DNA of 64,000 nucleotides from Sinohyriopsis cumingii (taxonomy: Eukaryota; Mollusca; Bivalvia; Unionida; Unionidae): NCBI GenBank assembly GCA_028554795.2, contig CM068835.1:30444311-30508310 (forward strand), given 5' to 3'. Positions within the stretch are counted from its first letter, which is position 1. Each line of letters begins with the position of its first letter. The position numbers and the translations under genes are program-made. This document shows, in pieces, positions 10,268 through 30,362 of this stretch. Below the pieces are notes generated by a model. The model was not told where the DNA came from, did not search any database, and saw only the letters and a list, made by a program, of their open reading frames with translations.

Positions 10268-10312
10268 TATCTCTTTTCGAGATATATGGCTGGCCCTGAA
10301 AAGGGCCTTTGG
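10268..10312 (-). terminator. Histone-type 3' stem-loop plus downstream element (copy 1)
   Basis: On the minus strand CCAAAGGCCCTTTTCAGGGC continues to the end of a 6-bp stem (10307-10292) with loop UUUC and AAA before it, matching the replication-dependent histone mRNA stem-loop recognised by SLBP. GAAAAGAGA begins 14 nt after the stem (10278-10270) and resembles the histone downstream element that pairs with U7 snRNA. It lies 23 nt past the stop of the minus-strand gene at 10330-10560 and is inside the left TIR. Confidence 0.8.
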
Positions 10313-10329
10313 TTTATGTTAATATGCCC

Positions 10330-10560
10330 TTAACATAAAGGGCATTTGCGACATCTTCTTCTCCTCAAACTTCGTCTTACAGCAGGGCCATACATCAGAG
10401 TCCTCTTGAGGCAACCTTGTCTCTCTATATAGACTCTTCTTATCCACAGGCTGCTGCTGGTCCTGTGGACAACGGTCCACTTGGATCGGACATACATGAG
10501 CATGTCCGTCCTGAACATCATTGTTGACACCAGGGTTGAAGATTCAACGTCGGTCCACAT
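10330..10560 (-). CDS. Small Arg-rich terminal protein, unknown function
   Basis: The 76-residue frame starts with ATG at 10560, 45-50 nt after a minus-strand TATAAATA (10612-10604), so the start is well supported. The C-terminus is strongly basic and Cys-containing (RRSLRRRRCRKCPLC), suggesting nucleic-acid binding or a nuclear localisation signal. There is no TM segment and I recognise no family. It is the outermost left gene, transcribed outward into the TIR, and ends in a histone-type 3' signal. It is divergent from the gene at 10780. The small basic character recalls viral core peptides, but that is only a suggestion. Confidence 0.6.
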   Translation of the reverse strand: MWTDVESSTLVSTMMFRTDMLMYVRSKWTVVHRTSSSLWIRRVYIERQGCLKRTLMYGPAVRRSLRRRRCRKCPLC

Positions 10561-10779
10561 GTTGAGGCTCCGAGAATAGGTGAATCAATGCAGTGAACTG
10601 CGCTTATTTATAGGGACAGAAAGGATTGAAACGGATTGAGTTCATTCACCAATCCGAACACGCGTTACAGAATTCAGTCAGCCCGCATCCAATCCGAAGA
10701 GAGCAGTCTGTGACGTCACGTAGTCAATATAGATTCGCTAGCGCTTGTGTGCAGTCAATCTATGCGACAGTGATTCAAC
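10561..10779. promoter_or_regulatory. Divergent promoter with TATA, CCAAT and CRE motifs
   Basis: Between two divergent genes lie a minus-strand TATAAATA (10612-10604), two CCAATCCGAA sites (10649-10658 and 10689-10698), an opposite CGGATTG (10632-10638), a perfect palindromic CRE TGACGTCA (10711-10718) and a weak plus-strand TATAGA (10728-10733). CCAAT boxes and TATA are typical of replication-dependent histone promoters, and CRE binds CREB/ATF. The layout resembles a bidirectional H2A-H2B promoter; this analogy is inference. Confidence 0.65.
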
Positions 10780-11353
10780 ATGACGGAAACTCAGAAAACG
10801 ATCCCATGGGGTGCACCAGCAGGGGAGACCGCCCAAGGGAACCCGGACTTACTTTCAGAAGAGGTGAATTGGGATTTTGTGGATTTTCTCTCCTCGCAAG
10901 AATTTGTTCCGGAACCTGTGTTACCTTCTTCATTACCGCAAGTGGAGAATTTTAGACAGAGACAGAAAGAAGAATTGGAGAAATTTATACAACGACAAAA
11001 GGAAGCCGAACAAGTTTTTCTCCTACAGCAACAGCAGCAAGAAGAAGAGGTAAGAAAAAAAACAACAGCAACAACAGCAAGAAGAAGTAGCAGCAAAGAA
11101 ACAAGAGGGTGAAAATCAAACGGTCACGGTACTGTTGGACATTTTAGCGGAGTTAAGAAGTCTGAAACAAATGTATCAGACTTCTTTATCACGACCGAAG
11201 AGAATACGACCTTCCCGAGCTAAACACGTTAACCCTGTGACTAAGCCTACCGTACCACCCTTAGTGATTTCAACCCAATCATCAACATTACGCAGTTCAG
11301 AAGTAGGCCTTGGCCGTGGCAAAGGCATAAGGCAGTTAAAGTTGATTGGTTAA
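10780..11353 (+). CDS. Gln/Glu-rich coiled-coil protein, frameshifted
   Basis: ATG at 10780 opens a frame that is acidic at first (NWDFVDFLSS) and becomes a Gln/Glu/Lys-rich helix likely to form a coiled coil. At an A8 run (11055-11062) the reading switches by +1: the first frame ends at 11112 after a low-complexity tail, while the next frame continues the Gln/Glu pattern and then a Leu-rich helix (LLDILAELRSLKQMY) and a basic tail to 11353. I read this as one gene of about 190 codons with an extra A. A 5' splice-like GTAAGA at 11050 gives only an implausibly short intron. It ends 25 nt before a histone-type stem-loop. No known family recognised. Confidence 0.6.
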
Positions 11354-11378
11354 ACTCACCCCTGCACCGAAATAAAAA

Positions 11379-11416
11379 GGCCCTTTTCAGGGCCAGCCAC
11401 ATTTCTCGAAAAGATA
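11379..11416 (+). terminator. Histone-type 3' stem-loop plus downstream element (copy 2)
   Basis: GGCCCTTTTCAGGGCC (11379-11394) is preceded by AAAAA and followed by AGCCACA; GAAAAGATA starts 14 nt after the stem (11408). Stem, loop and spacing are as in the other four copies. Confidence 0.8.
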
Positions 11417-11557
11417 TACAATTTCAAATTGCCAATAACTCAAAAAAAATATTCAACAGCCCATTTTACCCTTATAGTACGTGTCTGTGTATGAGTGCGT
11501 GAGTGTACGTTCTTATTTTAAAATCAAAACTCAAAGACACTTACCTTATATCATTCA

Positions 11558-11563
11558 TTTATT
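11558..11563 (-). terminator. Poly(A) signal of the minus-strand zinc-knuckle gene
   Basis: AATAAA on the minus strand about 90 nt after the stop at 11650. It faces the plus-strand stem-loop at 11379, so two convergent genes use two different 3'-end signals. Confidence 0.55.
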
Positions 11564-11649
11564 CTTTTCTCCATTTTTTACAATCCAATTCACAATTCAC
11601 AACATAACACTTTAATTAAAAGTTCATTTACTTCTTCTTTTCTCCTTCT

Positions 11650-12131
11650 TTAGTTTCTCTGTTTTTTCAATTTCTTCACCGTCATTCCCTCTTCTTTCTT
11701 CTCATTTTCTTCCCTTCTTCTTTTCTTCTCGTGTTTCTTTGCCTCATTTAAATAGAATTGTCTTTTTTCTTCCTCTTCTTCCTCTGAAGAATCCCTCTCT
11801 TCCTTTGAAGAATCCTTCTCTTCTTCTGAAGAATTCCTCTTTTCTTCTGACTCCTCTTGTTTCTTTTTTGGGCAATCTGGAGACCAATGTCTTTTTTCCT
11901 TACAATAATAACAGGTATCTTGACTTTTGTCTTTTTTATCCCGTTTTTTTTTCTTTTTTGACGGTCTGGACATTCTGAAGACCAATGCCCTTTCTTCTGA
12001 CAGATATAGCAAGTATCCTGACTTTTATCTCGAAAGGAAGGAGAGTAGTCCGTAGGCTGGTCTGAAGAGAATTTTCTAATGACCCCTCGCAAAGCTCTGA
12101 CGAAACGTTCGATTTGGTTAGTCTCTTCCAT
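11650..12131 (-). CDS. Double CCHC zinc-knuckle protein, frameshifted
   Basis: Minus-strand ATG at 12131 lies about 55 nt downstream of TATATAAAAGG (12194-12184). The first frame has a charged helix, then CYICQKKGHWSSEC (C-x2-C-x4-H-x4-C), a zinc knuckle as in retroviral nucleocapsids. At a T9 run (11944-11952, A9 on the coding strand) reading shifts by -1 or +2 into a frame with a second knuckle, CYYCKEKRHWSPDC, followed by a long Glu/Ser/Lys-rich tail to 11650. Two knuckles of the same spacing in adjacent frames make one broken gene the best reading. Zinc knuckles bind single-stranded nucleic acid; the actual role here is unknown. Confidence 0.65.
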
Positions 12132-12265: not shown

Positions 12266-15200
12266 ATGAAACGATCCCATTCATTTGAGAGGAAAGAAAA
12301 AGAAAGTAAGAGGCAGAAACGTGATCTATCGCCTCGTACCAAGGCTGAAATCTTGGCACAAATTCATGCCAGTGATTTTGAAGAGGACATGAGTGAACCA
12401 GAATTTGAAACCTCTAAACCAAGTTCGTCACCCTTACTCAACCCTGAAAAATACTATTCCATTCGAGAGACGGAAAAGCGCTCCTCTAGAAAATTTAGAA
12501 CCACGGCTTACACCTACACGGTGAAGTTTAAAGATTTCAAGTCCGACGTACCATTGGAGAAAGCAGAAGGGTTCATCACCGAGATGTGGGATTCTTTGCT
12601 CACTTCACTCAAGCGACAATGTCAACCCAAAGAAGACGATCGCTTGACACTATCCATAGATCACGACGGTTTGAAATCCCCTGTTTGGATCGAGTTTAGC
12701 AGACCCGCAGAACTAACCCCTTCCAAAATCATGGACAAGATTCAACACGTGCAACAATCTAATGACCAGTTTGACATCACCGATGGTAAAGCCACACTGA
12801 AAATGGCCCACGTCTCTCTTCCTCAAGGGACTGGACAACGCAATAAGGTGTTATTGGTGAACGAACTTCGCAGTACCAAAAAGAGCCTCGTCCAAATTCA
12901 CAACCCTCATGACCAGATGTGTTTAGCCCGTGCCATCGTGGTGGGACGAACCTATGCCAACAAGAACGACACGGTAGAATGGAAAAGAACCTGGAAAACT
13001 ATTCAACGATCCGATCGAGCCAAACAACGAAATGAAGCAGAACTCCTGTTACAACAAGCCGGACTGTCCAAAGACACACCCTGTGGCATTCCTGAGATGC
13101 AAAAATTGCAAGATGCCCTAGCTCCACGATACACCTTGAAAGTGCACCCTCAAGAAGTGCGCGGACCTCTGTTGTTTCGAGGCCAAGACTTTAAGGACTT
13201 AAAATACATTCACCTTTATCATCACGATGACCATTTCGATACCATTACCAGTATCACTGGATTCCTGGGATATGTTTATTATTGTGAGAAATGTGACCGT
13301 GGTTATAATAATCGAGAGCAACACAAACATTGTGGATCGAAATGCCCAGGATGTTTGGCCTCTTCACCCTGTCTGAGCGAAGAACCAGTGCCTTGTTCAA
13401 CTTGTCTGCGCACGTTTGTCAGCCCTACCTGTTACCAACAACATCTGAAAACGCAAGGTTCACAGAAGAAATGTGCTTGTCAACTCCTGAGATTGTGCCC
13501 TACGTGTGAACAAGTCATACGTACCAATAATACCAAGGCACACATATGTTCAGGAAAGAAAAAATGTCACATTTGTCACCACATCGTCGACTTGGAACAC
13601 CAATGTTACATGCAAAAATACCAACCCCCACCAGAGAAAGAGGACGGTCACAAGAATAAAAAAGGCAATTTCATCTTTTTCGATTTCGAATGCATGCAAG
13701 AGACTGGCATTCACATTCCTAATTTCTGCGTGGCTCATCGACCGTGTGAGAAGTGTATTCAAGAACCTATCTTCAGTCATTGCCCTCACTGCAGCAAGAT
13801 TCCCGGAGGGCGTGAAAAAATCTTTCGGGGACCAAACACGTTAACCGATTTTGCCCAATGGGTCTTAGACCCCGTCGACAAGACGTGGAGCCAAGAGGAC
13901 ATCGAACGTTACGGAGATTGTCATCGTCATGCCACGGTGATGGCTCACAATTTTTCCGGATACGATGGACAGTTTCTTTTGAGGTACTATATGGAACAAG
14001 GCACCGAGCGTCCTAAAGTGACTTTGAACGGAGCCAAAATCATTTTCATGCAAGTGGGACAAGTGCAGTTTAAAGATTCGATGAGTTACTTGGCCATGCC
14101 TTTGAGTCGAATGCCTAAAACGTTTGGAATGACAGAAATGGCTAAAGGGTACTTTCCACACTTTTTCAATACGGAAGCCAACCAACATGCTGTTCTACCC
14201 CATTTACCAGAGGCTCACTATTACGACCCCGACAACATGCGTACCGAACAACGAGAAGCTTTCTACGCTTGGTACCAGGCTCACGCCTCTGACCCCTTTG
14301 ACTTTCAGGAAGAAATGCTAAAGTATTGTCGTTCCGACGTGGACATTTTACGGCGTTGCTGTGGAAAATTTCGAGAACTGTTCATGGAACACGGAAGGGT
14401 CGATCCTTTGAAAGAAGCTTGCACCATTGCCAAAGCGTGTTCCTTAGTGTACCGCCAACGATTCATGCCTGAAAACACCGTGGCTGTCATCAGTCCTCAA
14501 ACGACCCACTATGTCAAACGTCAATACTCGGTCAAAGCCCTAGGTTGGTTACATTACTTGTGCGACAAGGAAGACAAGTGGATTCAGCATGCCCGCAACG
14601 GAGGGGGCGAAAAGACCATCGGAACGTATTCGGTCGATGGCTGGGACTTAGAAAACCCCAAGATCGTGTACGAGTTTAACGGTTGCTTATTTCACGGATG
14701 TCCCGTCTGTTACCCTGACCGTGACACTAAAAATCAGTTTTTACAACGGACCATGGAAGACTTGTACCAGGACAATTGTCAGCGACGCTTGAAGTTAGAA
14801 CAGCAAGGATACCAAGTGGTGGAAATGTGGGAACACGAATACGATCACCGTATAAAAACCGATCCCGAGTTTAAACGTGCCGTGGAAAGTTACAAGCTGA
14901 TGGACCCCCTAAACCCGAGGGATAGTTTGTACGGAGGAAGGACCAATGCCACCTGTTTGCTGTACCAAGCCGACGAAGAGAAAGGAGAAGAAATCAAATA
15001 CTTGGACGTGTGTTCGCTGTATCCCTACGTGTGCAAATATTGTCGCTTTCCTGTAGGGCACCCGCAATTGCTGACGGAACACATCGACCTGAAAAACATT
15101 CGACAATACGAAGGCTTGATCAAGTGTAAAGTTTTGCCTCCCACGAACCTATACCATCCCGTCTTACCTCACCATTGCCAAGGCAAACTGATGTTTCCAT

Positions 15201-16309
15201 TGTGCCGTACTTGTGCCGAAACGTGCAACCAGGACCAACCTTGCCATCACAGCCAGGAAGAACGGGCCTCGACGGGAACCTGGGTCAGCGTAGAATTGTT
15301 CAAAGCTCTGGACATGGGATACCAACTGTTAGAAGTGTACGAAATTTGCCACTTTCCCAAGACACAACAATACCACAAGGGTGACCCTACTCAGAAAGGC
15401 ATTTTCGCCGACTACGTGGATGCCTTTTTGAAACTGAAGCAAGAAGCCAGCGGCTATCCTTCCTGGTGTCACACTCCCGAAGACCAAATACAATTCAAAG
15501 AGAAATACTATGAACAAGAAGGCATCACTTTAGACCACATCGAGAAAAACGAAGGCAGGCGATCGTTTGCCAAAGTGATGTTAAATTGCTTGTGGGGTAA
15601 AATGGCACAACGACCGTGTTTACCCAAGACGGAATATTTGACAGAACCTTCCCGCTACTTCCAGATGATTCACGACAAAACCAAATACATGAAACACGTG
15701 GACGTCGTTCGAGAGAATTTGATCTTGGTCAATTACGAAGAAGATCTGGACTTTGTACAAGACGACCATTTTGGAAATGTCATCATTGTGGCTTACGTGA
15801 CAGCTCATGCTCGCTTAAAATTGTACGAAGCTTTAGAACTGTTAGGGGAACGCGTCCTGTACTTTGACACGGACAGTTGCATTTACATCCATCACCCGAT
15901 TCAACATCACCCTGACATCGAAGGAGACCGTTTAGGAGCCTGGACAGACGAGCATCCCGACGACAAGATTCTAAGTTTCGTCAGTGGCGGTCCCAAAAAT
16001 TACGGCTACGAATACCGGGACAAACAAGGAGAAGTGCACACGACGTGCAAAGTGAAAGGACTGACTCTGAATCATCGTACCAGTCGAGTAGTCAACTTTG
16101 GGGTATTGAAAGAAGCCTTGCAATCGGGAGAGGATGGAAACTTTAAAGTGACCACTCACCAACCGAACAAGATTGTACGTTTACCCACTCACCACATCGT
16201 CAGTCGACCTTTGGAAAAAGTTTATCAAATCGTGTACCAGAAGCGAGTTCGACTTCCCAATCATTTTACCTTACCGTATGGACACGTTGGTATAAAACAT
16301 TGGTTGTAA
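12266..16309 (+). CDS. POLB: Protein-primed family B DNA polymerase
   Basis: The intact 1347-residue protein replicates the element. The N-terminal ~330 residues are not recognisable and may include a terminal-protein-like part. Residues 340-450 are Cys/His-rich with several CxxC pairs (zinc-finger-like). Exonuclease motifs follow: ExoI FDFE (D473, E475), ExoII HNFSGYD (N562, D567), ExoIII YCRSD (Y687, D691). Residues ~780-860 resemble a Vsr-type nuclease fold (EFNGCLFHGCPVCYP, then RLKLEQQGYQVVEMWEHE). Polymerase motif A is DVCSLYP (914-920), motif B KVMLNCLWGK (1103-1112), motif C YFDTDS (1199-1204). All catalytic residues are present. Length and order fit the Polinton protein-primed polymerase family. 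A TATA box lies at 12212. Confidence 0.97.
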   Translation: MKRSHSFERKEKESKRQKRDLSPRTKAEILAQIHASDFEEDMSEPEFETSKPSSSPLLNPEKYYSIRETEKRSSRKFRTTAYTYTVKFKDFKSDVPLEKAEGFITEMWDSLLTSLKRQCQPKEDDRLTLSIDHDGLKSPVWIEFSRPAELTPSKIMDKIQHVQQSNDQFDITDGKATLKMAHVSLPQGTGQRNKVLLVNELRSTKKSLVQIHNPHDQMCLARAIVVGRTYANKNDTVEWKRTWKTIQRSDRAKQRNEAELLLQQAGLSKDTPCGIPEMQKLQDALAPRYTLKVHPQEVRGPLLFRGQDFKDLKYIHLYHHDDHFDTITSITGFLGYVYYCEKCDRGYNNREQHKHCGSKCPGCLASSPCLSEEPVPCSTCLRTFVSPTCYQQHLKTQGSQKKCACQLLRLCPTCEQVIRTNNTKAHICSGKKKCHICHHIVDLEHQCYMQKYQPPPEKEDGHKNKKGNFIFFDFECMQETGIHIPNFCVAHRPCEKCIQEPIFSHCPHCSKIPGGREKIFRGPNTLTDFAQWVLDPVDKTWSQEDIERYGDCHRHATVMAHNFSGYDGQFLLRYYMEQGTERPKVTLNGAKIIFMQVGQVQFKDSMSYLAMPLSRMPKTFGMTEMAKGYFPHFFNTEANQHAVLPHLPEAHYYDPDNMRTEQREAFYAWYQAHASDPFDFQEEMLKYCRSDVDILRRCCGKFRELFMEHGRVDPLKEACTIAKACSLVYRQRFMPENTVAVISPQTTHYVKRQYSVKALGWLHYLCDKEDKWIQHARNGGGEKTIGTYSVDGWDLENPKIVYEFNGCLFHGCPVCYPDRDTKNQFLQRTMEDLYQDNCQRRLKLEQQGYQVVEMWEHEYDHRIKTDPEFKRAVESYKLMDPLNPRDSLYGGRTNATCLLYQADEEKGEEIKYLDVCSLYPYVCKYCRFPVGHPQLLTEHIDLKNIRQYEGLIKCKVLPPTNLYHPVLPHHCQGKLMFPLCRTCAETCNQDQPCHHSQEERASTGTWVSVELFKALDMGYQLLEVYEICHFPKTQQYHKGDPTQKGIFADYVDAFLKLKQEASGYPSWCHTPEDQIQFKEKYYEQEGITLDHIEKNEGRRSFAKVMLNCLWGKMAQRPCLPKTEYLTEPSRYFQMIHDKTKYMKHVDVVRENLILVNYEEDLDFVQDDHFGNVIIVAYVTAHARLKLYEALELLGERVLYFDTDSCIYIHHPIQHHPDIEGDRLGAWTDEHPDDKILSFVSGGPKNYGYEYRDKQGEVHTTCKVKGLTLNHRTSRVVNFGVLKEALQSGEDGNFKVTTHQPNKIVRLPTHHIVSRPLEKVYQIVYQKRVRLPNHFTLPYGHVGIKHWL
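16291..16297 (+). promoter_or_regulatory. TATA box of first BIR gene inside the polymerase 3' end
   Basis: TATAAAA lies in the last polymerase codons, 42 nt before the ATG at 16333. Confidence 0.65.
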
Positions 16310-16332
16310 GAGGATAGTCACCCACCAGAAAG

Positions 16333-16791
16333 ATGACTTCGCCACAGCAAGAATCGAGTGAGAAACCCGATGAGAACTCCAAGTTCAAACCCTACCATTT
16401 TCCAGTCTTCTTACCTGACTATTGTGATTGTGCCCGTCGATTGGACACGTTTCAGAAATGGCCTACGGATAGGGAAGGATTACCTTCTTCGCATGTTTTA
16501 GCTAGAACAGGATTTGTCTACTTGGGACCTGAGTCAGGATTGGGATACGAGGTACAGTGTTTCGCTTGCGGACTGAAGTTACGAATGGATCTATGTATCT
16601 ATAAAGATTCAGCTATTCTGGAACATACTCGATGGTCTCCGCACTGCCCTTACCTTTCTATGGCCTTTCCACCCATCACACTACGGTACAATGTTGACGG
16701 TACCTTAGAGACGGTACCTTCCAGAACAGGACATAAAAAACGTAAAAAAGGAAAGATGTACAAGCTGGAGATTGCATTGCGACTAGTATAA
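16333..16791 (+). CDS. BIR-domain protein 1 (IAP-like)
   Basis: The 152-residue protein has one BIR domain at about residues 31-110: RRLDTFQKWP, LARTGFVYLG, QCFACG and EHTRWSPHC, with zinc ligands C76, C79, H98 and C105. The region following CFACG reads LKLRMD and lacks the tryptophan usual in the peptide groove, so ligand binding may differ. No RING is present; the C-terminus is Lys-rich. BIR proteins of the IAP family block caspases or bind IAP-antagonist peptides, and insect viruses carry them to delay apoptosis; that role here is inference. It follows the polymerase by 24 nt and precedes a second BIR gene. Confidence 0.88.
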   Translation: MTSPQQESSEKPDENSKFKPYHFPVFLPDYCDCARRLDTFQKWPTDREGLPSSHVLARTGFVYLGPESGLGYEVQCFACGLKLRMDLCIYKDSAILEHTRWSPHCPYLSMAFPPITLRYNVDGTLETVPSRTGHKKRKKGKMYKLEIALRLV

Positions 16792-16795
16792 AAAG
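16787..16795 (+). promoter_or_regulatory. TATA box overlapping the stop of BIR gene 1
   Basis: TATAAAAAG contains the TAA stop (16789-16791) and lies 65 nt before the next ATG at 16852. Confidence 0.7.
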
Positions 16796-16851
16796 GGGGG
16801 CTATGGTCAAGATCGATAGTTCATTGTGACTACCAAGACCGAACGAACAAG

Positions 16852-17490
16852 ATGAGTACTTTCAGAGAAACACAGAACAAGTTGTTTAGAAGGGCACAAT
16901 TCAAGTGTGAGGCTTCGGAAGTGGAATGCGATTGTGAGCCTTGCGATGGGTACGATGCTGTACGTTGTGATCTGAGCGATGCCGTAAAGCATCATGGGAA
17001 CTTTAGTGTCCCTACCCCTATCATGGAAAGTGATGCTGTGCGTGTCAAACCTGTGGGATGCGAAAGTGATGCCGCTCGTCCTCTTGGACATTTTACTGGG
17101 TTTCGTTTTAAAGGGGAATGTTCACCTTCACGTCTACCCCCCTACGGATGTCATCCAGCCCTGAGCAAACTCCTGCCCATGTCACTCAACCCTCATCGTA
17201 ACGAACCTGTGAAAGACGAATATTCGTTCCCTGTGCGTTTGTCGGAATACTGCGACTTTGAAAATCGTCTTCAATCGTTCAAAGGAAAATGGCCAAAGTA
17301 TCTGGGAGGACCGACCCCCGAAGAATTAGCCAGAGCCGGATTTTTCTACTTGGGCGAAGGAGATAAAGTCAAGTGCTTCAGTTGCGGTGTGTCACTTCAC
17401 CACTGGGAACCGCAAGATTCGGCCTACGTAGAACATGCTCGATGGTCACCGAATTGTCATTACTTACCCTTAGTGGGACCGAGACATTGA
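16852..17490 (+). CDS. BIR-domain protein 2 (IAP-like) with Cys-rich N-terminus
   Basis: The 212-residue protein has a canonical BIR at about residues 132-206: NRLQSFKGKWP, LARAGFFYLG, VKCFSCGVSLHHW and VEHARWSPNC, with C175, C178, H195, C202 and the groove tryptophan W185. The N-terminal 110 residues are Cys-containing and carry degenerate SDA(V/A) repeats (near 35, 42, 60, 72) that I do not recognise. No RING or CARD is seen. The two tandem BIR genes differ in groove residues, suggesting divergence after duplication or separate capture. The likely role is inhibition of host cell death, inferred from family knowledge only. Confidence 0.9.
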   Translation: MSTFRETQNKLFRRAQFKCEASEVECDCEPCDGYDAVRCDLSDAVKHHGNFSVPTPIMESDAVRVKPVGCESDAARPLGHFTGFRFKGECSPSRLPPYGCHPALSKLLPMSLNPHRNEPVKDEYSFPVRLSEYCDFENRLQSFKGKWPKYLGGPTPEELARAGFFYLGEGDKVKCFSCGVSLHHWEPQDSAYVEHARWSPNCHYLPLVGPRH

Positions 17491-17518
17491 AGTAACTTCT
17501 TACCATAATAATCTGTTC

Positions 17519-17974
17519 ATGGATACTTTACAAGAGAACATTCGTGCTTTGCCTGTGGAGTTGAGAGAACGCATTTACCGAGAGCTGGTCAAAATACAAG
17601 TGAAACGTAAAGAACAATTGCATCCGTTACGTCACCGGTGTTTGAACCACTGGTACCTGAAGGCTATACAAGGATTGATTCAATTGAAAGTGTTCCATCG
17701 GACAGACATTGATCAACGATCCTCTAGTTTTAAAAAGGATTGGTTTGGTATGGACGATTGTAGTTACCTCATTGTAAACGTACTGCATCGAATTCCAGAG
17801 GAAGAGTTAACGAATTACCAACATCTTGAACACAATGTCAACTTAGTGAAAGAGGAAACTTCTGAACGAATTGTAATGTGTAGATTAGTGACTCAACGAT
17901 TTAAATTCGACACTGAAGTGAAACCATGTTTGTGCAAAGAGTACATTTCGTGTGTCAGACCAAAGAGGATTTAG
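17519..17974 (+). CDS. F-box-like paralogue 1
   Basis: The 151-residue protein starts MDTLQENIRALPVELRERIY; the LPxELRxxIxxxL pattern at residues 11-22 resembles the first helix of an F-box or a SOCS-type box. The rest has a conserved NHWYL motif and beta-rich segments without clear family. It is a tandem paralogue of the next gene: the first ~40 residues are almost identical, then divergence is strong. No clear TATA is visible upstream. If the motif is real, the protein could recruit a host cullin ubiquitin ligase, as several poxviral proteins do; this is speculative. Confidence 0.65.
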   Translation: MDTLQENIRALPVELRERIYRELVKIQVKRKEQLHPLRHRCLNHWYLKAIQGLIQLKVFHRTDIDQRSSSFKKDWFGMDDCSYLIVNVLHRIPEEELTNYQHLEHNVNLVKEETSERIVMCRLVTQRFKFDTEVKPCLCKEYISCVRPKRI

Positions 17975-17986
17975 TATGACCTATTC

Positions 17987-19178: not shown

Positions 19179-19193
19179 AAAAAAAAAACATTC

Positions 19194-19199: not shown

Positions 19200-19214
19200 C
19201 GTGTTCTGAAAAAG

Positions 19215-21437: not shown

Positions 21438-21489
21438 CCCTCGGAAGTCCCAAGATCTCAGAATTCACCCCTGACAACCCCATGGAAGG

Positions 21490-22126: not shown

Positions 22127-22146
22127 GACACCAATCAACACAAAAA

Positions 22147-23259: not shown

Positions 23260-23264
23260 CTATC

Positions 23265-23678
23265 ATGCCCTTTCACACAGCAGACGCAGCTACGTCGACC
23301 AGTCCTTCAACCCCTAGTTCTTCTGTGCAAGATTTAGAAAAACAACCCTTGTGGGTGTGGTGTGGAGAACGTGTGCCTAAAACGCAAATCGTCTTTTTCT
23401 GCCAAATCTTCGTGGTGTATTGTGTCATCGGAGCAGCCATTGCCAATTTGAGTTTGCAACAAGGAGACAAACAATTGTGGACCATTTTATTGAGCAGTTG
23501 CATCGGTTACCTGCTTCCCAATCCCTCCCTGAAATTCTCCTCGAACGGGAACGTTGTGTCCAGTGCCAGTGTCAGTGCCAGTCACCACTCCAACCACAAT
23601 CAGAACCCCATTTTGGGCGGAGACACGCCTCTGACGTCCACTAACCCCTCGGACAGCCACAGAACTCTGGAATTATGA
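23265..23678 (+). CDS. Conserved two-TM Polinton protein
   Basis: The 137-residue protein has two hydrophobic segments, about residues 46-66 (IVFFCQIFVVYCVIGAAIA) and 74-95 (TILLSSCIGYLLPNP), separated by a short polar loop, then a Ser/Asn/His-rich tail. The block from VPKTQIVFF to LLPNPSLK is of a kind I recognise from many animal Polintons. A virion or host-membrane protein is likely; its exact role is unknown. Its stop overlaps the start of the penton gene (ATGA), suggesting coupled expression from one transcript. Confidence 0.75.
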   Translation: MPFHTADAATSTSPSTPSSSVQDLEKQPLWVWCGERVPKTQIVFFCQIFVVYCVIGAAIANLSLQQGDKQLWTILLSSCIGYLLPNPSLKFSSNGNVVSSASVSASHHSNHNQNPILGGDTPLTSTNPSDSHRTLEL

Positions 23679-24532
23679 GTCACCAAAACCAATTTTACTT
23701 AACCTTACCCAGTGACAGTTCCATGGAGGTGTTTCCCAATAACACGTTGTGCTGTTACACAGCCAAATTACCTCAAGCCATCCCCTTAGATCACGAAGCC
23801 CATTGGGAAGTGGCTTTGGTAGAAATGATTCACCCGACCCAAGTCCTCAATGTCATTACCCAGCAAAATTATTTTACGGTGGAAGTTCATGACTCACATT
23901 TGCAACAAGAGTTGGATAAGACTAGTAGCACATATACCAATAAAACCTATAATGACAAAACTAAAACGTGGACCTACAACGTGCTGATTCCCGCAGGCTA
24001 TTATTTCAGCGGTCAACATTTGGTCAACACCATAGCTACCAAGTTTAATGGTGTGTTTGGGGAAGCTTTTAAGAAGGATAATATCAATATCAAGAACAAA
24101 AGTGTCACCATGGAGTACCACAAAGTAGCTCGTCGCTTCTTAATAAAATTTGAGCGAAGTAAAGTCGTCTCCATTGTATTTTGTCCTGAATTGTTTGACA
24201 TGTTGGGTGGAGACATGATCATGAGAAAGACCATGATCAATAATGGCGAATCACCCAGCGTTTACGACAACGAGACTTTTAGCAAGTTATTTCGTACCCC
24301 GGTAGAACTGAACCAAGGACTGAATTTGATGTTTGTGTATTCCGATGTGGTGGAGTACAACGTGGTGGGACACACCTCCGTGCCGTTACTGCGTGTCATT
24401 CCTTTCAAAGTGGATTCTGCCGCAAACGCTGACGAGGAAGGTGGAAAAACTTACCACGTTCACCGCGAATTTGTCCATCCTCACTATTTGCCTGTTAGCA
24501 AGTCGTATTTGGACACCGTCAACATTATATAA
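23675..24532 (+). CDS. Minor capsid (penton-type) single jelly-roll protein
   Basis: The intact 285-residue protein starts with FYLTLPSDSSMEVFPNNTL and a stretch with HWEVALVEMIHPTQ, the signature of the Polinton minor capsid protein, which forms pentons at capsid vertices. The rest alternates beta-type segments consistent with a jelly roll. The ATG overlaps the previous stop by 4 bases. The last codons carry TATATAAAAG for the following gene. It lies with the major capsid, core, protease and ATPase genes in the morphogenesis block. Confidence 0.85.
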   Translation: MSHQNQFYLTLPSDSSMEVFPNNTLCCYTAKLPQAIPLDHEAHWEVALVEMIHPTQVLNVITQQNYFTVEVHDSHLQQELDKTSSTYTNKTYNDKTKTWTYNVLIPAGYYFSGQHLVNTIATKFNGVFGEAFKKDNINIKNKSVTMEYHKVARRFLIKFERSKVVSIVFCPELFDMLGGDMIMRKTMINNGESPSVYDNETFSKLFRTPVELNQGLNLMFVYSDVVEYNVVGHTSVPLLRVIPFKVDSAANADEEGGKTYHVHREFVHPHYLPVSKSYLDTVNII

Positions 24533-24535
24533 AAG
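24526..24535 (+). promoter_or_regulatory. TATA box overlapping the penton stop codon
   Basis: TATATAAAAG includes the TAA stop (24530-24532). The ATG of the next gene is 98 nt further on, giving a leader of about 70 nt. Confidence 0.75.
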
Positions 24536-24632
24536 GAGATCTGGGACAAAATATTCCATTCACCAAAGGAAAAGTCACGGTGAAACTCCATTTTCGAAAA
24601 CGGTTCTCTCACGACTCGTAAGTAAGTAAGTC

Positions 24633-25049
24633 ATGTATCCAGTGTACCGAGGAGTTGCACGACAGCGAGGACACAGTTTAGGAGACATGTTAAAATCGGC
24701 CTTTCGTTCGGTGGCCCCGGTGTTGAAACCGATGGTGACACGCGGATTGCACGCCTTGAAAGATGCGGCACTGACGCAAGGCAAAGAATTTCTCCAAAAT
24801 GTCATCATCGACAAACAAAACCCTAAAGAAGCCTTCATGAGGGCAGGCAAAAATGTCTTGCTGCAAACGGGTAAAGACATTTTGGGCCGACGAGACACAC
24901 CTATAAATGCCCTGCATGCTACCGAGTCAGGCATTCAGCAAGGACAAGGCAGAAAGAGACGACGAAGAAAACACCCTTTCAAGAGACTTCAAGCTAGAAA
25001 GGCCAAGAAAAGAAGAACCGTTCGAGACTTAGACGTTTTCGATTATTGA
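24633..25049 (+). CDS. Basic pVI/pX-like virion protein
   Basis: The 138-residue protein begins MYPVYRGVARQRGHSLGDML, continues with an amphipathic segment (FRSVAPVLKPMVTRGLHALK), an alpha-helical middle (NPKEAFMRAGKNVL) and a strongly basic tail (GRKRRRRKHPFKRLQARKAKKRR). A small protein of this design upstream of the capsid gene is common in Polintons and compared with adenovirus pVI or pX (membrane lysis or core function). The leader just before the ATG contains a tandem GTAAGTAAGTAAG like a splice donor. The stop lies 15 nt before the capsid ATG. Confidence 0.75.
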   Translation: MYPVYRGVARQRGHSLGDMLKSAFRSVAPVLKPMVTRGLHALKDAALTQGKEFLQNVIIDKQNPKEAFMRAGKNVLLQTGKDILGRRDTPINALHATESGIQQGQGRKRRRRKHPFKRLQARKAKKRRTVRDLDVFDY

Positions 25050-25063
25050 GAAAGAGAAAAAAA

Positions 25064-26357
25064 ATGATGCACCGAGAGTCTTGCGCTTGTTCCTTGGATC
25101 TGTTTGCCATGCCCCCCACCATGATGACGATGCAAGAATCCCAATGGGTGGAATTTAACCCCATCTCCTCATTGACCGATTCCGCTCCCATTGAATTTGA
25201 AATCAAAGGACAGCCCGAAGATTACATCGATCTGAATAGCAGTTACTTGTACTTGAAAGTCCAAGTTCTAAAAAAAGATGATAAAGGAGTAGAAGAGGAT
25301 GATAATATAGCTCCCGTCAACAATTTCATGCATTCCTTGTTCAGCTCAGTGGATTTGTACTTGAATAACAAACTAGTCAGCAGCAGCATGGATACATACC
25401 CTTACCGTGCCTACTTGGAAAATCTCTTGACGTACGGAACAGATGCCAAGGATAGTCATCTCAATGCCTGTGTGCTGTGGATACCTGACACAGCGACCAA
25501 GTTCGACGAAATAGATCCAAGCAATTCCGGCTTTGAGGCAAGAGAAGACAAAATCCTAGGTAAAAAGAGTTTAGAACTGATGGATCGTTTGCATTTGGAC
25601 ATGTGGTTGCAAGAGAAATATTTGCTGAACGGGGTCAATGTTCGCTTGAGACTGAATCGCAGCAGTGCCGCTTTCCATTTGCAGGCTAATGATTTTACTA
25701 AGGGTCCTAAAAGCATAATCCATGAGGCCAAACTCTACGTACGACGCGTGGAAGTGTTACCCAAAGTGGGTAACGACATCAGTCAAACGTTGAGCAGAAC
25801 GACCGCCAAATATCCCATACGACGCGTGGAAGTGAAAACGTTCACCATTCCCGCTAGCCATCATTCCATGATCGAAGATCATCTGTTTCAAGGACAGTTA
25901 CCCAAGCGTTTAATCCTTGGTATGGTCCTGAATTCAGCCTTCAACGGAGCCATCAAAGAAAATCCTTACAACTTTCAACACTTCGACGTGAAGAAAATCG
26001 AAGTCAGTCGCGATGGCAAGACCTTGTGTACCCGACCTTTCGAACCTGACTTTGCCAACAAAAAATTACTTGAGGTCGTACTTGTCCCTGTACGAAGCCA
26101 CCGGCCAGTTAGGAACCAACACCAGTCACGGCATTGAGTACGAAGATTACGCAGGAGGCTACGCTTTGTGGGCTTTCGATTTCACTCCAGACCAAGGCAG
26201 CGACGAGGGACATTTCCACCCTATAAAATCTGGCCAGATTCGTGTGGAACTTCAGTTTGCAAATCCTCTGCCAGCGACAGTGAACGTCATCCTGTATGCA
26301 GAATTCGATAATACGATAGAAATCAACAGTTTGAGAGAAGTCATCCTAGATTATTAG
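25064..26357 (+). CDS. MCP: Major capsid protein (double jelly roll), broken by one frameshift
   Basis: From ATG 25064 (or 25067) the frame encodes a capsid N-terminus with FEIKGQPEDYIDLNSSYLYL, the conserved opening of Polinton hexon-like proteins, and runs about 330 codons through the first and most of the second jelly roll. At an A6 run (26060-26065) the reading shifts by +1: the first frame ends in an unrelated tail at 26137, while the next carries the conserved C-terminal part (LSLYEATGQLG... to EINSLREVILDY) ending at 26357. The total fits about 430 residues. As assembled, the gene cannot make a whole capsid subunit. A -1 slippery site does not explain a +1 shift, so an extra A, real or from sequencing, is the likely cause. 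Confidence 0.88.
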
Positions 26358-26362
26358 AAGCC

Positions 26363-26869
26363 ATGGAAGACTGTTATCCCTCTTTACCTAGTGGAGAAAC
26401 TTTGGACATGGAATGTGAGGAGACCGTGGAAGGAGAAGAATCTCAAGACAAAGACGAAGAAGATATCATAATGAAGTCAAGATGGCCAGAACAAGAAGCC
26501 CATTTAGTCTGCTGTTTTGCCAAACAATTGGTCGACAAAATGACGGAATTGATCAAGAAAAATTGTTATGGATGTCAAAACGATCATCCCAGTCAAATTC
26601 AACACGATAAATGCCTGATGTTAAGTCAAGAAGAAAAATTGGACGAGTATCTGGACGAAGCTTGGAGTCTCATCTCGAACAAAGACGTGTTGCATCAGTG
26701 GTATAAAGACTTGCGTGAACATTCTTGTCCACCATTAACCACTCAAGAGATCCATCGTATCGAAACTCTCCTGAATCAGAGTGAGGAAACAGAACGAATA
26801 ACCGTTTATTCGTCAGACATTTTCAAGCAAAAAGTCAGGATCGAATTGACAACGTATTATTACCTGTGA
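26363..26869 (+). CDS. Conserved Cys/His protein between capsid and protease
   Basis: The 168-residue protein has an acidic N-terminus, a helical middle and a conserved CYGCQNDHPSQIQHDKC block (68-84), whose Cys and His spacing suggests a small metal site. Polintons commonly carry such a gene between capsid and protease. It starts 5 nt after the capsid stop in good context (GCCATGG). Function unknown; an assembly or regulatory role is only guessed from position. Confidence 0.75.
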   Translation: MEDCYPSLPSGETLDMECEETVEGEESQDKDEEDIIMKSRWPEQEAHLVCCFAKQLVDKMTELIKKNCYGCQNDHPSQIQHDKCLMLSQEEKLDEYLDEAWSLISNKDVLHQWYKDLREHSCPPLTTQEIHRIETLLNQSEETERITVYSSDIFKQKVRIELTTYYYL

Positions 26870-26891
26870 AGAAAAAAAACCACACAAATCA

Positions 26892-27452
26892 ATGGATACC
26901 TGGGAACTTTATTACCTTTTGAACCACAGTTCGTATACGGCTTCTTGGAATCCTGTCGTCTGTGCTAAAGATGAACTCCCTCATCGCAAACCTAAAGACC
27001 ATCAAGCTTACGTGATCAACACGGACGACAGTCATCTCCCAGGAACCCACTGGGTAGCCGTCTACTTTCCTCAAGAAGGATGTGTGGAATATTTCGATTC
27101 GTACGGATTGCCCCCTTTGGAAGACGATATCATCGACTTTATGAGAAGAAATGCTCAAACCACCCGATTCAATAACGTGAAATTACAAGGCACAGATTCT
27201 TTGGTGTGTGGACAATACTGTGTGTATTTTCTGCATCATCGCAGCCTGGGCTATTCCTTAGAACATTTAGTGACTCATTTTGATCCTCGTTCTTCTGCTA
27301 GAAACGATGTGAAAGTAGATCGATGGTTTTGTGACCATTATGCTTATCTTTTGTCTCAAGCTAGGAAACGTAGTGTCCATCAATGGCCTAATGATTTCCA
27401 AAAGTGGAAATCACAATTTCATTCACAACGTTGTCAGCCCTGTTCAAAGTAG
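26892..27452 (+). CDS. PRO: Adenain-like maturation cysteine protease
   Basis: The 186-residue protein fits the C5/Ulp1-type cysteine protease of Polintons and adenoviruses, which cleaves capsid and core precursors. Catalytic positions: H53 in GTHWVAVYF, D69 in EYFDSYG, Q99 in KLQG and C106 in LVCGQYC. The core is intact with a basic C-terminal tail. It is the last gene of the rightward core block and is followed by A-rich DNA with an AATAAA at 27573. Confidence 0.94.
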   Translation: MDTWELYYLLNHSSYTASWNPVVCAKDELPHRKPKDHQAYVINTDDSHLPGTHWVAVYFPQEGCVEYFDSYGLPPLEDDIIDFMRRNAQTTRFNNVKLQGTDSLVCGQYCVYFLHHRSLGYSLEHLVTHFDPRSSARNDVKVDRWFCDHYAYLLSQARKRSVHQWPNDFQKWKSQFHSQRCQPCSK

Positions 27453-27707: not shown

Positions 27708-27750
27708 GGGGATGTTTTCCTTCACGTCCGCGCTTTGACTTTAAGAACCG
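27708..27750 (+). promoter_or_regulatory. Right-end promoter module, copy 1
   Basis: GGGGATGTTTTCC (27708-27720) followed by TTCACGTCCGCGCTTT (27721-27736), then a poor TATA substitute (CTTTAAG). The same two-part module recurs at 28587, 29270 and 29339, twice with a good TATA box 4 nt downstream. Confidence 0.75.
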
Positions 27751-27774
27751 GGTTGTTTCCAGTCTAACCATCCA

Positions 27775-28161
27775 TTGTCGACTCATCCTCCTAAGAAGGT
27801 GTGCTCCAAACTAGCTAAACTCAACGAAGCCTACGTGAATTTGCATAGGGTCAGACACAGTCTGATACCGAAGCCAGAAGAAATAGAGAATGTGAGAATG
27901 TTAAAAATCACTGAAGACCTGATAGAAGAGCTCTTCAGAGAAGAAATGAACAGGGAAAAAGAAGAATGGACAGAGAAGTACAGACTTCAGAGACAGCAGC
28001 AACAGCAACAGCAGCAACAACAACAGCAGCAGCAACCTGAAGCTGACAGAGGCTTTGTCGATTGTCGTATCGACACCAAAGAGTTCTTCTTCTCTTTCCG
28101 AAGAAGCAGACCTATCGCCAGAAAGTCTATCCTCAGAGGACATCGCATTCTTAGAAACTAA
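27775..28161 (+). CDS. Gln-rich coiled-coil terminal protein
   Basis: The frame of about 128 codons opens with TTG inside ATTG (27774-27777), where an ATG would be expected; the first in-frame ATG is at 27898. The protein has a helical N-terminus, a Lys/Glu-rich helix and a CAG/CAA tract of about 15 Gln (28000-28035), then a basic C-terminus (FRRSRPIARK). It follows promoter module copy 1 and ends 32 nt before a histone-type stem-loop. Either a T was gained in the start codon or translation begins inside. No family recognised. Confidence 0.55.
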   Translation: MSTHPPKKVCSKLAKLNEAYVNLHRVRHSLIPKPEEIENVRMLKITEDLIEELFREEMNREKEEWTEKYRLQRQQQQQQQQQQQQQQPEADRGFVDCRIDTKEFFFSFRRSRPIARKSILRGHRILRN

Positions 28162-28193: not shown

Positions 28194-28232
28194 AGCCCTT
28201 TTCAGGGCTACCCAATACTCTAGAAAAGAAAT
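28194..28232 (+). terminator. Histone-type 3' stem-loop plus downstream element (copy 3)
   Basis: AGCCCTTTTCAGGGCT (28194-28209), flanked by AAC and ACCCA, keeps the invariant second G-C pair while the outer pair changes from G-C to A-U on both sides. GAAAAGAAA starts 14 nt after the stem (28223). Confidence 0.8.
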
Positions 28233-28586: not shown

Positions 28587-28625
28587 GGGGATGTTTTCCG
28601 TCACGTCCGCGCTTTCACTATAAAT
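28587..28625 (+). promoter_or_regulatory. Right-end promoter module, copy 2, with TATA
   Basis: GGGGATGTTTTCC-GTCACGTCCGCGCTTT (28587-28615), then TATAAAT at 28619, 63 nt before ATG 28682. Confidence 0.8.
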
Positions 28626-28681: not shown

Positions 28682-28990
28682 ATGAATAGCAGAATAGTGA
28701 AACTGTTAGAACTCCAGATGCACCTGGAATATGCCAGGCGCATAGTAAACGAACTATCAGCGGAGGCTATAGTAGAAGAAGCAAGAGTAAAGAAGGAAGA
28801 GGAGGAGAGAAGAGAGAGGGAAGAAGAGGAAAAGAAAAGAGAAGAGAGGATGTCGTTCAATATTTCCGAGACAGAGGATTGGGGTGTTGAAGCGAATCAT
28901 CCTCCCTCTGCGCTCCCCAGAAGAAAGGTGAAAGAAGACTGGGGAAGAAGATGCGTGTGTGGCGCCAGGCCAGGAAGGTGCAACCATTAG
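28682..28990 (+). CDS. Glu/Arg-rich coiled-coil terminal protein
   Basis: The frame of 102 residues starts at ATG 28682; an in-frame TTG at 28661 is rejected. The N-terminal half is a Leu-heptad-like helix, then an EEERREREEEEKKREE stretch predicted as coiled coil, and a C-terminus with Cys (RRCVCGARPGRC). It has its own TATA and promoter module and ends before stem-loop copy 4. It may be a very diverged relative of the other right-end proteins, all small, charged and helical. Function unknown. Confidence 0.6.
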   Translation: MNSRIVKLLELQMHLEYARRIVNELSAEAIVEEARVKKEEEERREREEEEKKREERMSFNISETEDWGVEANHPPSALPRRKVKEDWGRRCVCGARPGRCNH

Positions 28991-29022
28991 ATAGGTGCAT
29001 CAGGAGTTCAAAAAAAACCAAC

Positions 29023-29062
29023 AGCCCTTTTCAGGGCTACCCCAATACTCTAGAAAAGAAAT
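29023..29062 (+). terminator. Histone-type 3' stem-loop plus downstream element (copy 4)
   Basis: AGCCCTTTTCAGGGCT (29023-29038) is preceded by AACCAAC and followed by ACCCCA; GAAAAGAAA begins 15 nt after the stem (29053), one base longer than in copy 3 because of an extra C. Confidence 0.8.
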
Positions 29063-29269
29063 AACGATCGATTTGCCAATGTGTGTAGGTAGAGTAGTGT
29101 AAATATAAACACTAACTCTTTATTAATAGTGGAAGTGAATGTGTTAGTGTGTTTGTGTTTGTAAATGCTGAAGTAGGTTGGTGTGAATAGCAGATTATGG
29201 GTTTATTTATTGATTCTTAGCGTATGTAGAGAGTATAGTTAGGGTTATATTATATGAAATGAGAAAGTA

Positions 29270-29298
29270 GGGGATGTTTTCCTTCACGTCCGCGCGTT
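29270..29298 (+). promoter_or_regulatory. Right-end promoter module, copy 3 (no TATA or gene)
   Basis: GGGGATGTTTTCC-TTCACGTCCGCGC is conserved but GCGCTTT has become GCGCGTT and no TATA box follows; copy 4 begins 40 bp further on. It is probably left over from local duplication, or a second activator site. Confidence 0.65.
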
Positions 29299-29338
29299 GT
29301 TGGGTCATGATCTAGGTAAGATCAATTTTATGTTTTAG

Positions 29339-29377
29339 GGGGATGTTTTCCTTCACGTACGCGCTTTCAGTATAAAA
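29339..29377 (+). promoter_or_regulatory. Right-end promoter module, copy 4, with TATA
   Basis: GGGGATGTTTTCC-TTCACGTACGCGCTTT (29339-29367), then TATAAAA at 29371, 58 nt before ATG 29429. Confidence 0.8.
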
Positions 29378-29428
29378 CTAACAGTGTTGGCCATTGGAAC
29401 CCATTCTACGGAATAAGCAAACAAGAAG

Positions 29429-30024
29429 ATGCCAGCAGCTTCAGCTTTATACAACGATCTTATGGGAAGTTGGTATTGGATGGTAGATGGATTGAGTGTA
29501 GTAGAAAGGGTTGAACAGGAATGGAGGTATGCAGTGACAAAAGACTTCGTCTCAAGACAAGTAACCAGCCTCCACTTATCCGTAAATATTGTAAAAGAAA
29601 TGATAGAGGATGAGGAGAAGAGAATCAGAGGTTTAATTAACCCACCGTATGTCAAAGTGGGTAAGTTAAAAGAAGCGATAGATCATGTGACGAGTGCAAG
29701 GTGCTTTCTAGAAGACATAGTAGAATGGACAGATTGGTGTTTCGCGAAGTGGGGGTTAGAAAAACTTAAGAAAGCTGAAGAACTAATGAGGAATGTGCTG
29801 ACCGAAGAGGTCAAGAAGATCAAAGAAAAGTGGTCAAAGGAAAGAAAAGAAGAAGAAAATAGAAAAAAAAGGATGAATTCGAAAAACTGAACACAAACTG
29901 GATGAAAATCCAAGAGAAGTTCCGGGCCATGGGCCACCCGGACTGGTTGCCGGAAACAGAAAAGAAAAAGAAGAAAGGAATGATGGACAAAATAAGAGGA
30001 TGGTGGAAGAAGTTAAGAAGTTAA
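29429..30024 (+). CDS. Charged helical terminal protein, frameshifted near the C-terminus
   Basis: ATG 29429 opens a frame with Trp-rich helices (GSWYWMVDG, VEWTDWCFAKWG) and a Lys/Glu coiled-coil end. At an A8 run (29863-29870) the sense shifts by -1 or +2: the first frame stops at 29890, while another continues with KIQEKFRAMGHPDW and a basic end to a stop at 30024. The second reading brings the stop to 23 nt before stem-loop copy 5, the same distance as at the left end. No family recognised. It is the outermost right gene and runs into the TIR. Confidence 0.6.
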
Positions 30025-30041
30025 AAGAAGAAGAAGAAAAA

Positions 30042-30362
30042 CCCAAAGGCCCTTTTCAGGGCCAGCCATATATCTCGAAAAGAGATAGCCTTTCCATTGC
30101 CTACCCCTTTTTTTTAAAAAAAAAAATAAAAAAAAATCCCATGTTCAATTTCCCTTGTCGCTAATCAGACCCAAGATTTTTTCTCCATATTAATTTCCCT
30201 TGACGCTAATCAGACCCAAGATTTTTTCTCCATGTTAATTTCCCTTGTCGCTAATCTGACCCACGATTTTTCTCCATGTTAAATTTCCCTTGTCGCTAAT
30301 CTGACCCAAGGGTGTTTTTAATGCTAATTCCCATTGTCGCTAATCCTACCCTCTTTACTACT
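30042..30362 (-). repeat. Right terminal inverted repeat
   Basis: Near-perfect inverse of 9995-10314, with a slightly different A/T homopolymer length near 30112-30140 and isolated substitutions. It includes stem-loop copy 5 and the 45-46-bp units (about 30132-30310). Confidence 0.95.
30048..30085 (+). terminator. Histone-type 3' stem-loop plus downstream element (copy 5)
   Basis: ACCCAAA precedes GGCCCTTTTCAGGGCC (30048-30063), followed by AGCCA; GAAAAGAGA starts 14 nt after the stem (30077). It lies inside the right TIR and is the mirror copy of copy 1. Confidence 0.82.

Follow-up and report, generated by a model that had tools for sequence, protein, structure and literature searches.

Polintons (or Mavericks) are related to virophages, and the element described here resembles them in possessing PolB, an integrase, an A32-like ATPase, a weak match to the adenovirus protease, putative capsid genes, terminal inverted repeats (TIRs) and a 6-bp target-site duplication, but differs from them in that its accessory genes end like histone genes and have a histone promoter element. 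Among the papers searched, none joins "Polinton" with "histone stem-loop". Replication-dependent histone mRNAs are described in PMC6303110 as the only known protein-coding mRNAs of animals in which a 3' stem-loop replaces the poly(A) tail. The 3' ends of the accessory genes share with those of histone genes (RF00032 plus the histone downstream element) a position just past the stop codon, the 6-bp stem, the 4-nt loop, the A-rich 5' flank and a GAAAAG core, 13–14 nt downstream as in the host, although the genes in question are non-histone and part of a mobile virus-like element. The Mimivirus transcripts described in PMC4402537 likewise come from a virus genome and end at a hairpin; there, however, viral enzymes cut and polyadenylate the transcript, whereas in the present element the stem is fixed, of the host histone type, and followed by a downstream element.

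The element occupies positions 9995–30362 of the window (the whole 64,000-nucleotide stretch of DNA that was analysed) and is a Polinton with TIRs and 6-bp target-site duplications (Table 1). The Polinton hallmarks exceeded the Pfam cut-offs (DNA_pol_B_2, 2.9e-41; rve, 2.1e-14; Pox_A32, 6.9e-8), the putative protease frame matched Peptidase_C5 at 0.0084, under the cut-off of that family, and the frames that we take to be capsid genes matched no Pfam family. The element family is very abundant, probably with copies of the order of ten thousand, in a genome that appears to be that of a bivalve. Judging from the sequence comparisons, the accessory genes on its left and right sides very probably use the 3'-end signal of the replication-dependent histone genes of the host, in which an SLBP-type stem-loop precedes a U7-type downstream element by 13–14 nt, and the right-hand ones also carry an H2B/H1-type promoter element. 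The signals match those of the host histone genes in sequence, hold a fixed position behind accessory genes that are subject to purifying selection, and are conserved between copies. The hairpin is absent from the core block, and the last core gene, the protease gene, is followed instead by AATAAA, 121 nt downstream.

Table 1. Features of the Polinton and its flanks, in window coordinates
Feature	Position	Strand	Remarks
Target-site duplication TAAAGA, left copy	9989..9994	.	Pairs with copy at 30363-30368
Left terminal inverted repeat	9995..10315	.	Histone-type hairpin at inner end
GAAAAGA histone downstream element of stem-loop 1	10272..10278	-	Pattern match
Stem-loop 1 (left TIR)	10292..10307	-	RF00032 35.6 bits
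Left minus-strand accessory gene	10330..10584	-	84-codon open frame; stop 22 nt before stem; dN/dS 0.19
Left plus-strand accessory gene	10780..11353	+	Two frames in window copy; stop 25 nt before stem; dN/dS 0.59
Stem-loop 2	11379..11394	+	RF00032 34.8 bits
GAAAAGA downstream element of stem-loop 2	11408..11414	+	Pattern match
Core genes, lacking histone-type 3' ends	12266..27452	+	PolB, BIR x2, ATPase, integrase, putative capsid genes, putative protease
Histone-promoter element copy 1	27711..27733	+	22/23 identical to host H2B element
Accessory gene "pair 1"	27745..28161	+	138-codon open frame; stop 32 nt before stem; dN/dS 0.23
Stem-loop 3	28194..28209	+	RF00032 31.0 bits, E 6.4e-5, under gathering score
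GAAAAGA downstream element of stem-loop 3	28223..28229	+	Pattern match
Histone-promoter element copy 2	28590..28612	+	TATAAA 6 nt downstream
Accessory gene "pair 2"	28682..28990	+	102 aa; stop 32 nt before stem; dN/dS 0.22
Stem-loop 4	29023..29038	+	RF00032 30.1 bits, E 1.4e-4, under gathering score
GAAAAGA downstream element of stem-loop 4	29053..29059	+	Pattern match
Histone-promoter element copy 3	29273..29295	+	Sequence match
Histone-promoter element copy 4	29342..29364	+	TATAAA 6 nt downstream
Right accessory gene	29429..30024	+	Two frames in window copy; stop 23 nt before stem; dN/dS 0.15
Right terminal inverted repeat	30040..30362	.	Contains stem-loop 5
Stem-loop 5 (right TIR)	30048..30063	+	RF00032 35.6 bits
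GAAAAGA downstream element of stem-loop 5	30077..30083	+	Pattern match
Target-site duplication TAAAGA, right copy	30363..30368	.	Pairs with 9989-9994

The original prediction had placed five histone-type hairpins in this element, and all five were located where it put them. Each matches the Rfam Histone3 covariance model (RF00032; gathering score, 34 bits), the check that the prediction had proposed, three of them at or above the gathering score and two at 30–31 bits. The combined pattern of stem and GAAAAGA occurs five times in the window, versus none in 100 shuffles. GAAAAGA does follow every stem and the hairpins do lie shortly after stop codons, as had been claimed, but the distances given were slightly off: the spacer is 13 nt in four cases and 14 nt in one (not 14–15 nt), and the hairpins begin 22, 25, 32, 32 and 23 nt past the stop (not 23–33 nt). 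The five hairpins represent three lineages, namely the identical TIR pair at 10307 (minus) and 30048 (plus), those at 28194 and 29023 in duplicates that are 82% identical, and that at 11379. The compensatory G-C to A-U change, which had been read as showing selection on structure, is present but is weak evidence alone, because it is a single event within the 28194/29023 duplicate pair. Two of the five hairpins stand in the TIRs, as might be expected if they acted at the DNA level, for example in replication or transposition. Such a role has hardly any probability, since the other three are internal, all five are gene-oriented and 22–32 nt past a stop, and neither the downstream element nor the histone promoter element would be expected of it.

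The five accessory gene families are under purifying selection (dN/dS 0.15–0.59; the value for the left minus-strand gene is based on seven copies, the window copy among them). Of the two frameshifted genes, the right one is rightly counted as far as its extended stop: two longer relatives share 71% and 60% identity with its second frame in their C-termini, and relatives of 184–195 aa align to this frame within about one residue of its stop. The C-terminal frame of the left plus-strand gene is conserved in other copies, within longer frames that stay open for up to 210 codons. For the left minus-strand gene, an alternative frame that the codon score favoured was rejected, as it has no relatives and the other frame is conserved (dN/dS 0.19). 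With the left minus-strand protein as a query, 150 copies were among the matches listed. No histone family matched the accessory frames that were scanned against Pfam, and the fold model of the accessory protein P0122, made from three sequences, is all-helical (mean pLDDT 77.5).

The host histone genes (35.0–39.4 bits with RF00032) have the same stem, and in five of them the GAAAAG core lies 13–14 nt behind it, as at all five sites of the window. A virus-type signal, like the palindromic hairpins at which viral enzymes of Mimiviridae cut and polyadenylate transcripts, might be thought of here in view of the kinship between Polintons and virophages. According to PMC4402537, hairpin-terminated transcripts are also known in giant viruses. 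However, the histone stem, the UUUC loop and the GAAAAG core are common to the host histone genes at equal spacing, and Pfam scans of 17 element frames, several of which match nothing, revealed no RNA-processing enzyme, so that this explanation is extremely improbable. The likeness to host genes may extend further: in the 24 nt past the downstream core, the 28194/29023 pair agrees with the flank of the host H2A gene at 16 and 14 of 24 positions, and none of 1000 shuffles was as good, although among all 20 host-element pairs compared in this way, nine were under 0.05 and 11 were not.

The host genome (2.9 Gb) contains 55,346 exact sites of hairpin plus downstream element, and the reversed pattern has none. 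The five-site layout of the window was seen 11 times among the first 100 sites listed. Of 30 distinct sites, 27 lie behind frames that match accessory proteins of the window or its relatives, and the other three share one further C-terminus. Of 30 sampled loci, 20 were scanned with RF00032, which gave 23 matches above the gathering score, at 21 distinct sites in 15 loci (maximum, 42.5 bits), and five of the 20 loci were without one. In a sample chosen independently of the hairpin, the hairpin lies behind all 40 copies of the right-hand accessory gene, versus none of 20 copies of the protease gene, all 20 of which have a poly(A) hexamer, though such counts do not represent independent events because many copies are young and alike. 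In a gapped comparison of the 40 copies, the pairwise difference was 0.04 in the stem and 0.028 in GAAAAGA versus 0.20–0.49 in most flanking stretches, and 0.257 in the five bases after the stem; seven stems are incompletely paired, and the spacer is 11–12 nt in eight copies.

These data bear on passive hitch-hiking, by which an ancestor would have captured host histone gene ends that were then duplicated together with the genes and have no function in the element. The five cassettes are indeed alike beyond the hairpin, and the H2A-like flank of the 28194/29023 pair fits capture as the origin. Nevertheless, hitch-hiking is very unlikely to account for stems and downstream elements that differ so much less between copies than most of their flanks do, next to genes whose dS between copies reaches 1.2–1.8 in three of the five families, or for a cassette found behind each accessory family sampled and not behind the sampled core gene. 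Outside the host assembly, Histone3 was detected at E 0.1 in none of three distant capsid relatives from other hosts (39–44% identity), a weak negative, as each of them is a fragment of a contig and one seems to have decayed. They occur in MAGs of bacteria, two of which are animal symbionts by title, and presumably represent host DNA. Two exact hairpin patterns had no matches in viral contigs, and capsid, accessory and PolB queries against these contigs gave no confirmed relatives.

The original prediction concerned 3' ends, and to these an apparent promoter element shared with histone genes, absent from it, can now be added. A 23-nt element found upstream of the host H2B and H1 genes also precedes the right-hand accessory genes (15 of 16 sites), and is absent from the left-hand ones (0 of 14). 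When up to five mismatches were allowed, 200 Markov copies contained no chance match. One of the three host histone units examined has no such element upstream of its H2B, and the left promoter region, compared with a host histone unit, had no match at E ≤1. The right-hand genes, though they encode no histones, resemble histone genes in sequence both upstream and at the 3' end.

A poly(A) alternative to the hairpin exists, because AATAAA occurs downstream of it in three of the five accessory genes, 99–113 nt past the stop (76–80 nt past the start of the stem). These hexamers of the window copy would fit a dual use that is compatible with histone-type 3' ends, in which dividing cells process the hairpin and other cells polyadenylate the transcripts by way of AATAAA. 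We consider this unlikely on balance, as in the other two genes no AATAAA follows the hairpin in the first 250 nt past the stop, and a chance hexamer is likely in so A-rich a context. Searches of the host with the Rfam family for U7 and with the SLBP family gave no match, and are little informative, since the control genomes gave none either. A Sm-site pattern for U7 had 21 matches versus 38 for the reversed control, and the 20 examined showed no U7-like 3' hairpin on inspection; the predicted pairing of the five sites with the human U7 5' end was no better than that of shuffles (121 to 344 of 500 as good).

In short, the match to host histone genes, the presence of the hairpin in 40 of 40 versus 0 of 20 copies and its conservation support the original reading of histone-type 3' ends on non-histone Polinton genes, and suggest that the element has tapped the S-phase histone programme of its host. 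SLBP would bind the accessory pre-mRNAs at the stem-loop, U7 snRNP would cleave them 4–5 nt past the stem, and the resulting mRNAs would lack poly(A), with their stability and translation confined mainly to S phase. Synthesis of the accessory proteins would then coincide with replication of the cellular DNA, the time at which copying might go best for an element that has its own DNA polymerase, and the core genes would form a separately controlled class. Probably, a family of some ten thousand copies presents its accessory genes in the guise of histone genes, by the 3' ends on both sides and by the promoter on the right. This would bring the accessory proteins into the S-phase programme of the host, perhaps within the histone locus body, and their transcripts would be the first mRNAs in animals to encode non-histone proteins and have such a 3' end.

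If this is true, a large non-histone gene family with the full signal, and partly with the promoter, would break the histone-only rule, and would offer natural non-histone substrates for studies of SLBP and U7. Such genes would escape RNA-seq of poly(A)-selected RNA, perhaps the reason that they were not noticed before. A virus-like element would also borrow the S-phase histone programme, which hints at how Polintons may time their expression to the DNA replication of the host.

Based on the Rfam covariance model Histone3 (RF00032), all five hairpins in the window were matched as histone stem-loops, as the original prediction expected. With a gathering score of 34 bits, three of the matches pass (35.6, 35.6 and 34.8 bits) and two fall short (31.0 and 30.1 bits; E = 6.4e-5 and 1.4e-4). 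The pattern of stem plus GAAAAGA, the U7-type histone downstream element, was counted five times in the window; 100 shuffles yielded no instance of it. Both terminal hairpins are one sequence present in each terminal inverted repeat (TIR), and those of pair 1 and pair 2 lie inside duplicates of 82% identity, so that the five predicted stem-loops stand as sites but represent only three lineages. The stems begin 22, 25, 32, 32 and 23 nt past a stop codon; thus the predicted close placement holds, but not the exact range of 23-33 nt. The right gene and the left plus gene are each in two frames in this copy. Counting the right gene to its extended stop proved justified: it has three longer relatives (184-195 aa), two of which align at their C-termini with its second frame (71% and 60% identity), and the match, with the frames read separately, reaches within about one residue of the stop preceding the hairpin.

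Features of the Polinton in window coordinates
Feature	Position	Strand or remark
Polinton	9995-30362	
Left TIR	9995-10315	
Hairpin, minus gene	10307-10292	minus
Left divergent promoter	10561-10779	between the two left accessory genes
Hairpin, left plus gene	11379	
Core block	12266-27452	
BIR-domain genes	16333-16791, 16852-17490	adjoining
Tandem duplicate genes	17519-17974, 17987-18505	
Putative capsid gene	25064-26357	
Promoter elements	27711, 28590, 29273, 29342	
Hairpin, pair 1	28194	
Hairpin, pair 2	29023	
Right TIR	30040-30362	
Hairpin, right gene	30048	
45-base tandem units	30102-30317	in the right TIR

The element is delimited by its TIRs and by a TAAAGA target-site duplication on each side. 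Pfam matches were found for a B-family DNA polymerase, two BIR-domain (inhibitor-of-apoptosis) proteins, an A32-like ATPase and an integrase with a chromodomain, together with an adenovirus-protease match below its cut-off. The tandem duplicate genes, 86% identical over 209 nt, have no Pfam match. Neither has the protein that we take to be the capsid, for which 861 relatives were found at E 0.001; among the 120 of these that were listed, the few with animal names are from the clam Mercenaria and oysters, and one bears the name of a bacterial MAG. A bivalve is thus the probable host. Its gene seems to be in two frames here, giving 357 aa against about 430-440 aa in most close relatives.

The relation of the hairpin to gene ends was examined in copies chosen without reference to the hairpin itself, namely the first 20 and last 20 of 150 listed genomic matches to the accessory protein P0122, with 140 bases taken around and past each C-terminus (no two stretches are identical, and three from one contig look alike). 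The stem was recognized at 13 or more of its 16 bases in all 40 copies, exactly in 26 and fully paired in 33; the opposite strand, a partial mirror image of the stem, reaches 13 bases in one of the 40. Downstream, 37 copies have GAAAAGA or a close form, at a spacing of 13 nt in 24, 14 in five, 12 in four and 11 in four, and AAAAGA or AAAAGG lies somewhere in every stretch. Protease-gene copies (matches 2-21 of 150 listed), whose 99-100% identical proteins make them one young lineage of one core gene, served as the control: stem and GAAAAGA were both absent after the gene in all 20 (no more than 6-7 of the 16 stem bases matched), and a poly(A) hexamer followed it in every one. In the window, no hairpin was found after the 19 plus-strand core stops examined; a poly(A) hexamer lies no more than 250 nt past three of these stops. 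When the 40 accessory ends were aligned with gaps, pairs of copies differed on average by 0.04 over the stem, 0.028 over the GAAAAGA stretch and 0.111 over the ten A-rich bases that precede the stem. The figure is 0.224 further upstream, 0.197-0.282 between the conserved stretches and 0.32-0.49 past +57. A further conserved stretch (difference 0.11) lies past the downstream element at about +43 to +56 from the stem start; it resembles CAATTTGCCAA, and host H2A and H2B have part of it too.

Matches to the exact hairpin-plus-downstream pattern number 55,346 in the 2.9-Gb genome, and the reversed control gave no match. Among the first 100 sites listed, the layout of the window recurs in 11 groups of five: a repeat-end site and a pair of sites, then, after roughly 13-18 kb, a single site and the repeat-end site of the other side. 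At five sites each, there would be some 11,000 elements, as an order of magnitude. This genome also holds at least 150 protease-gene matches, 99-100% identical and without inner stops, drawn from 33,523 first-look candidates; the Polinton copy number is very high and recent. All of 30 distinct sites drawn from the first 30 loci of the pattern listing have an open frame upstream whose stop precedes the stem by 19-38 nt. A nearby stop easily arises by chance, and the weight is carried by the C-termini, 27 of which match accessory proteins of the window or their relatives, the other three having one different C-terminus in common. The predicted tie of hairpins to gene ends in related copies is supported by these C-termini and by the P0122 sample (40/40). 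Because the pattern chose these sites, identity of their stems is not evidence alone; what counts is conservation outside the pattern, of the A-rich 5' flank and other bases (28 sites). Across the five window genes and 22 of the 30 sites (eight were omitted as redundant copies or for frames that were short or had no match), dN/dS is 0.19 for the minus gene, 0.59 for left plus, 0.23 for pair 1, 0.22 for pair 2 and 0.15 for the right gene, which marks the accessory frames as selected genes, with left plus as the weakest case. Values of dS stay at about 0.3 or less in left plus and pair 1, and rise as high as 1.2-1.8 in the three other families (minus, pair 2 and right).

For the host histone genes, at least 150 Pfam matches were obtained, and tandem units of about 8.3 kb hold many of them. 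In three of these histone stretches, Rfam gave 16 matches at E ≤ 0.01, every one of them Histone3 (35.0-39.4 bits). Five gene types, named from their protein ends (the H1-like also from its lysine-rich make-up), have the stem in common with the Polinton, with a GAAAAG core 13-14 nt past the stem in both; the stem of the H1-like gene has a compensated third pair. Over the 24 nt past the core, 16 and 14 positions are like those of host H2A in the hairpins of pair 1 and pair 2, and host-element flank comparisons by shuffling gave values under 0.05 in nine of 20 cases and not in 11. Because U7 itself was not found by a search in which the controls were unmatched too, the label histone-type rests most strongly on this comparison with host genes.

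A promoter element is shared as well. GATGTTTTCCATCACGTCCGCGC lies upstream of host H2B in two of the three histone stretches, and a copy with one further change lies upstream of the H1-like gene. In the third stretch (L086), nothing better than 10 mismatches was seen over the 2,600 bases that precede H2B, and an H4 hairpin was not found either, so that this histone unit seems rearranged. The four Polinton copies, all upstream of the three right-hand accessory genes, are identical to the H2B copy at 21 or 22 of 23 bases, and TATAAA lies 6 nt past two of them; in 200 Markov copies of the histone unit, chance matches at five or fewer mismatches were absent, and two arose at six. Counted at up to four mismatches within 1,100 nt upstream, the element precedes 15 of 16 right-side sites but none of 14 left-side sites, and two of its copies are identical to the H2B element over all 23 bases. 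The host H2A promoter (position 3453 of histone stretch L084) has a weaker inverted copy, with five mismatches to the Polinton form. The left divergent promoter has a TGACGTCA site without mismatch and, for the minus gene, a TATA box; no histone promoter element was found there.

No report of a Polinton together with the histone stem-loop was found in the literature searched (best-ranked listings, with subscription papers mostly outside). A different link between SLBP and a virus, in coronavirus frameshifting, has been described (PMC12166091), and in a bivalve the palindrome is described in all histone mRNAs and purine-rich elements in some (PMC6210712). The U7 snRNP cuts 4-5 nt past the stem, guided by pairing of the U7 CUCUUU with what in mouse is an AAAGAG core (PMC7026596); AAAGAG is exact in the repeat-end Polinton copies and one base off in the others. 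The data show the sequence and position of these signals, selection on the accessory genes, and identity of the signals with the host's own. From them we infer that the accessory mRNAs would be made via the stem-loop/U7 cleavage route of histone mRNAs, and would hence be tied to S phase, while transcripts of the core block would be polyadenylated.
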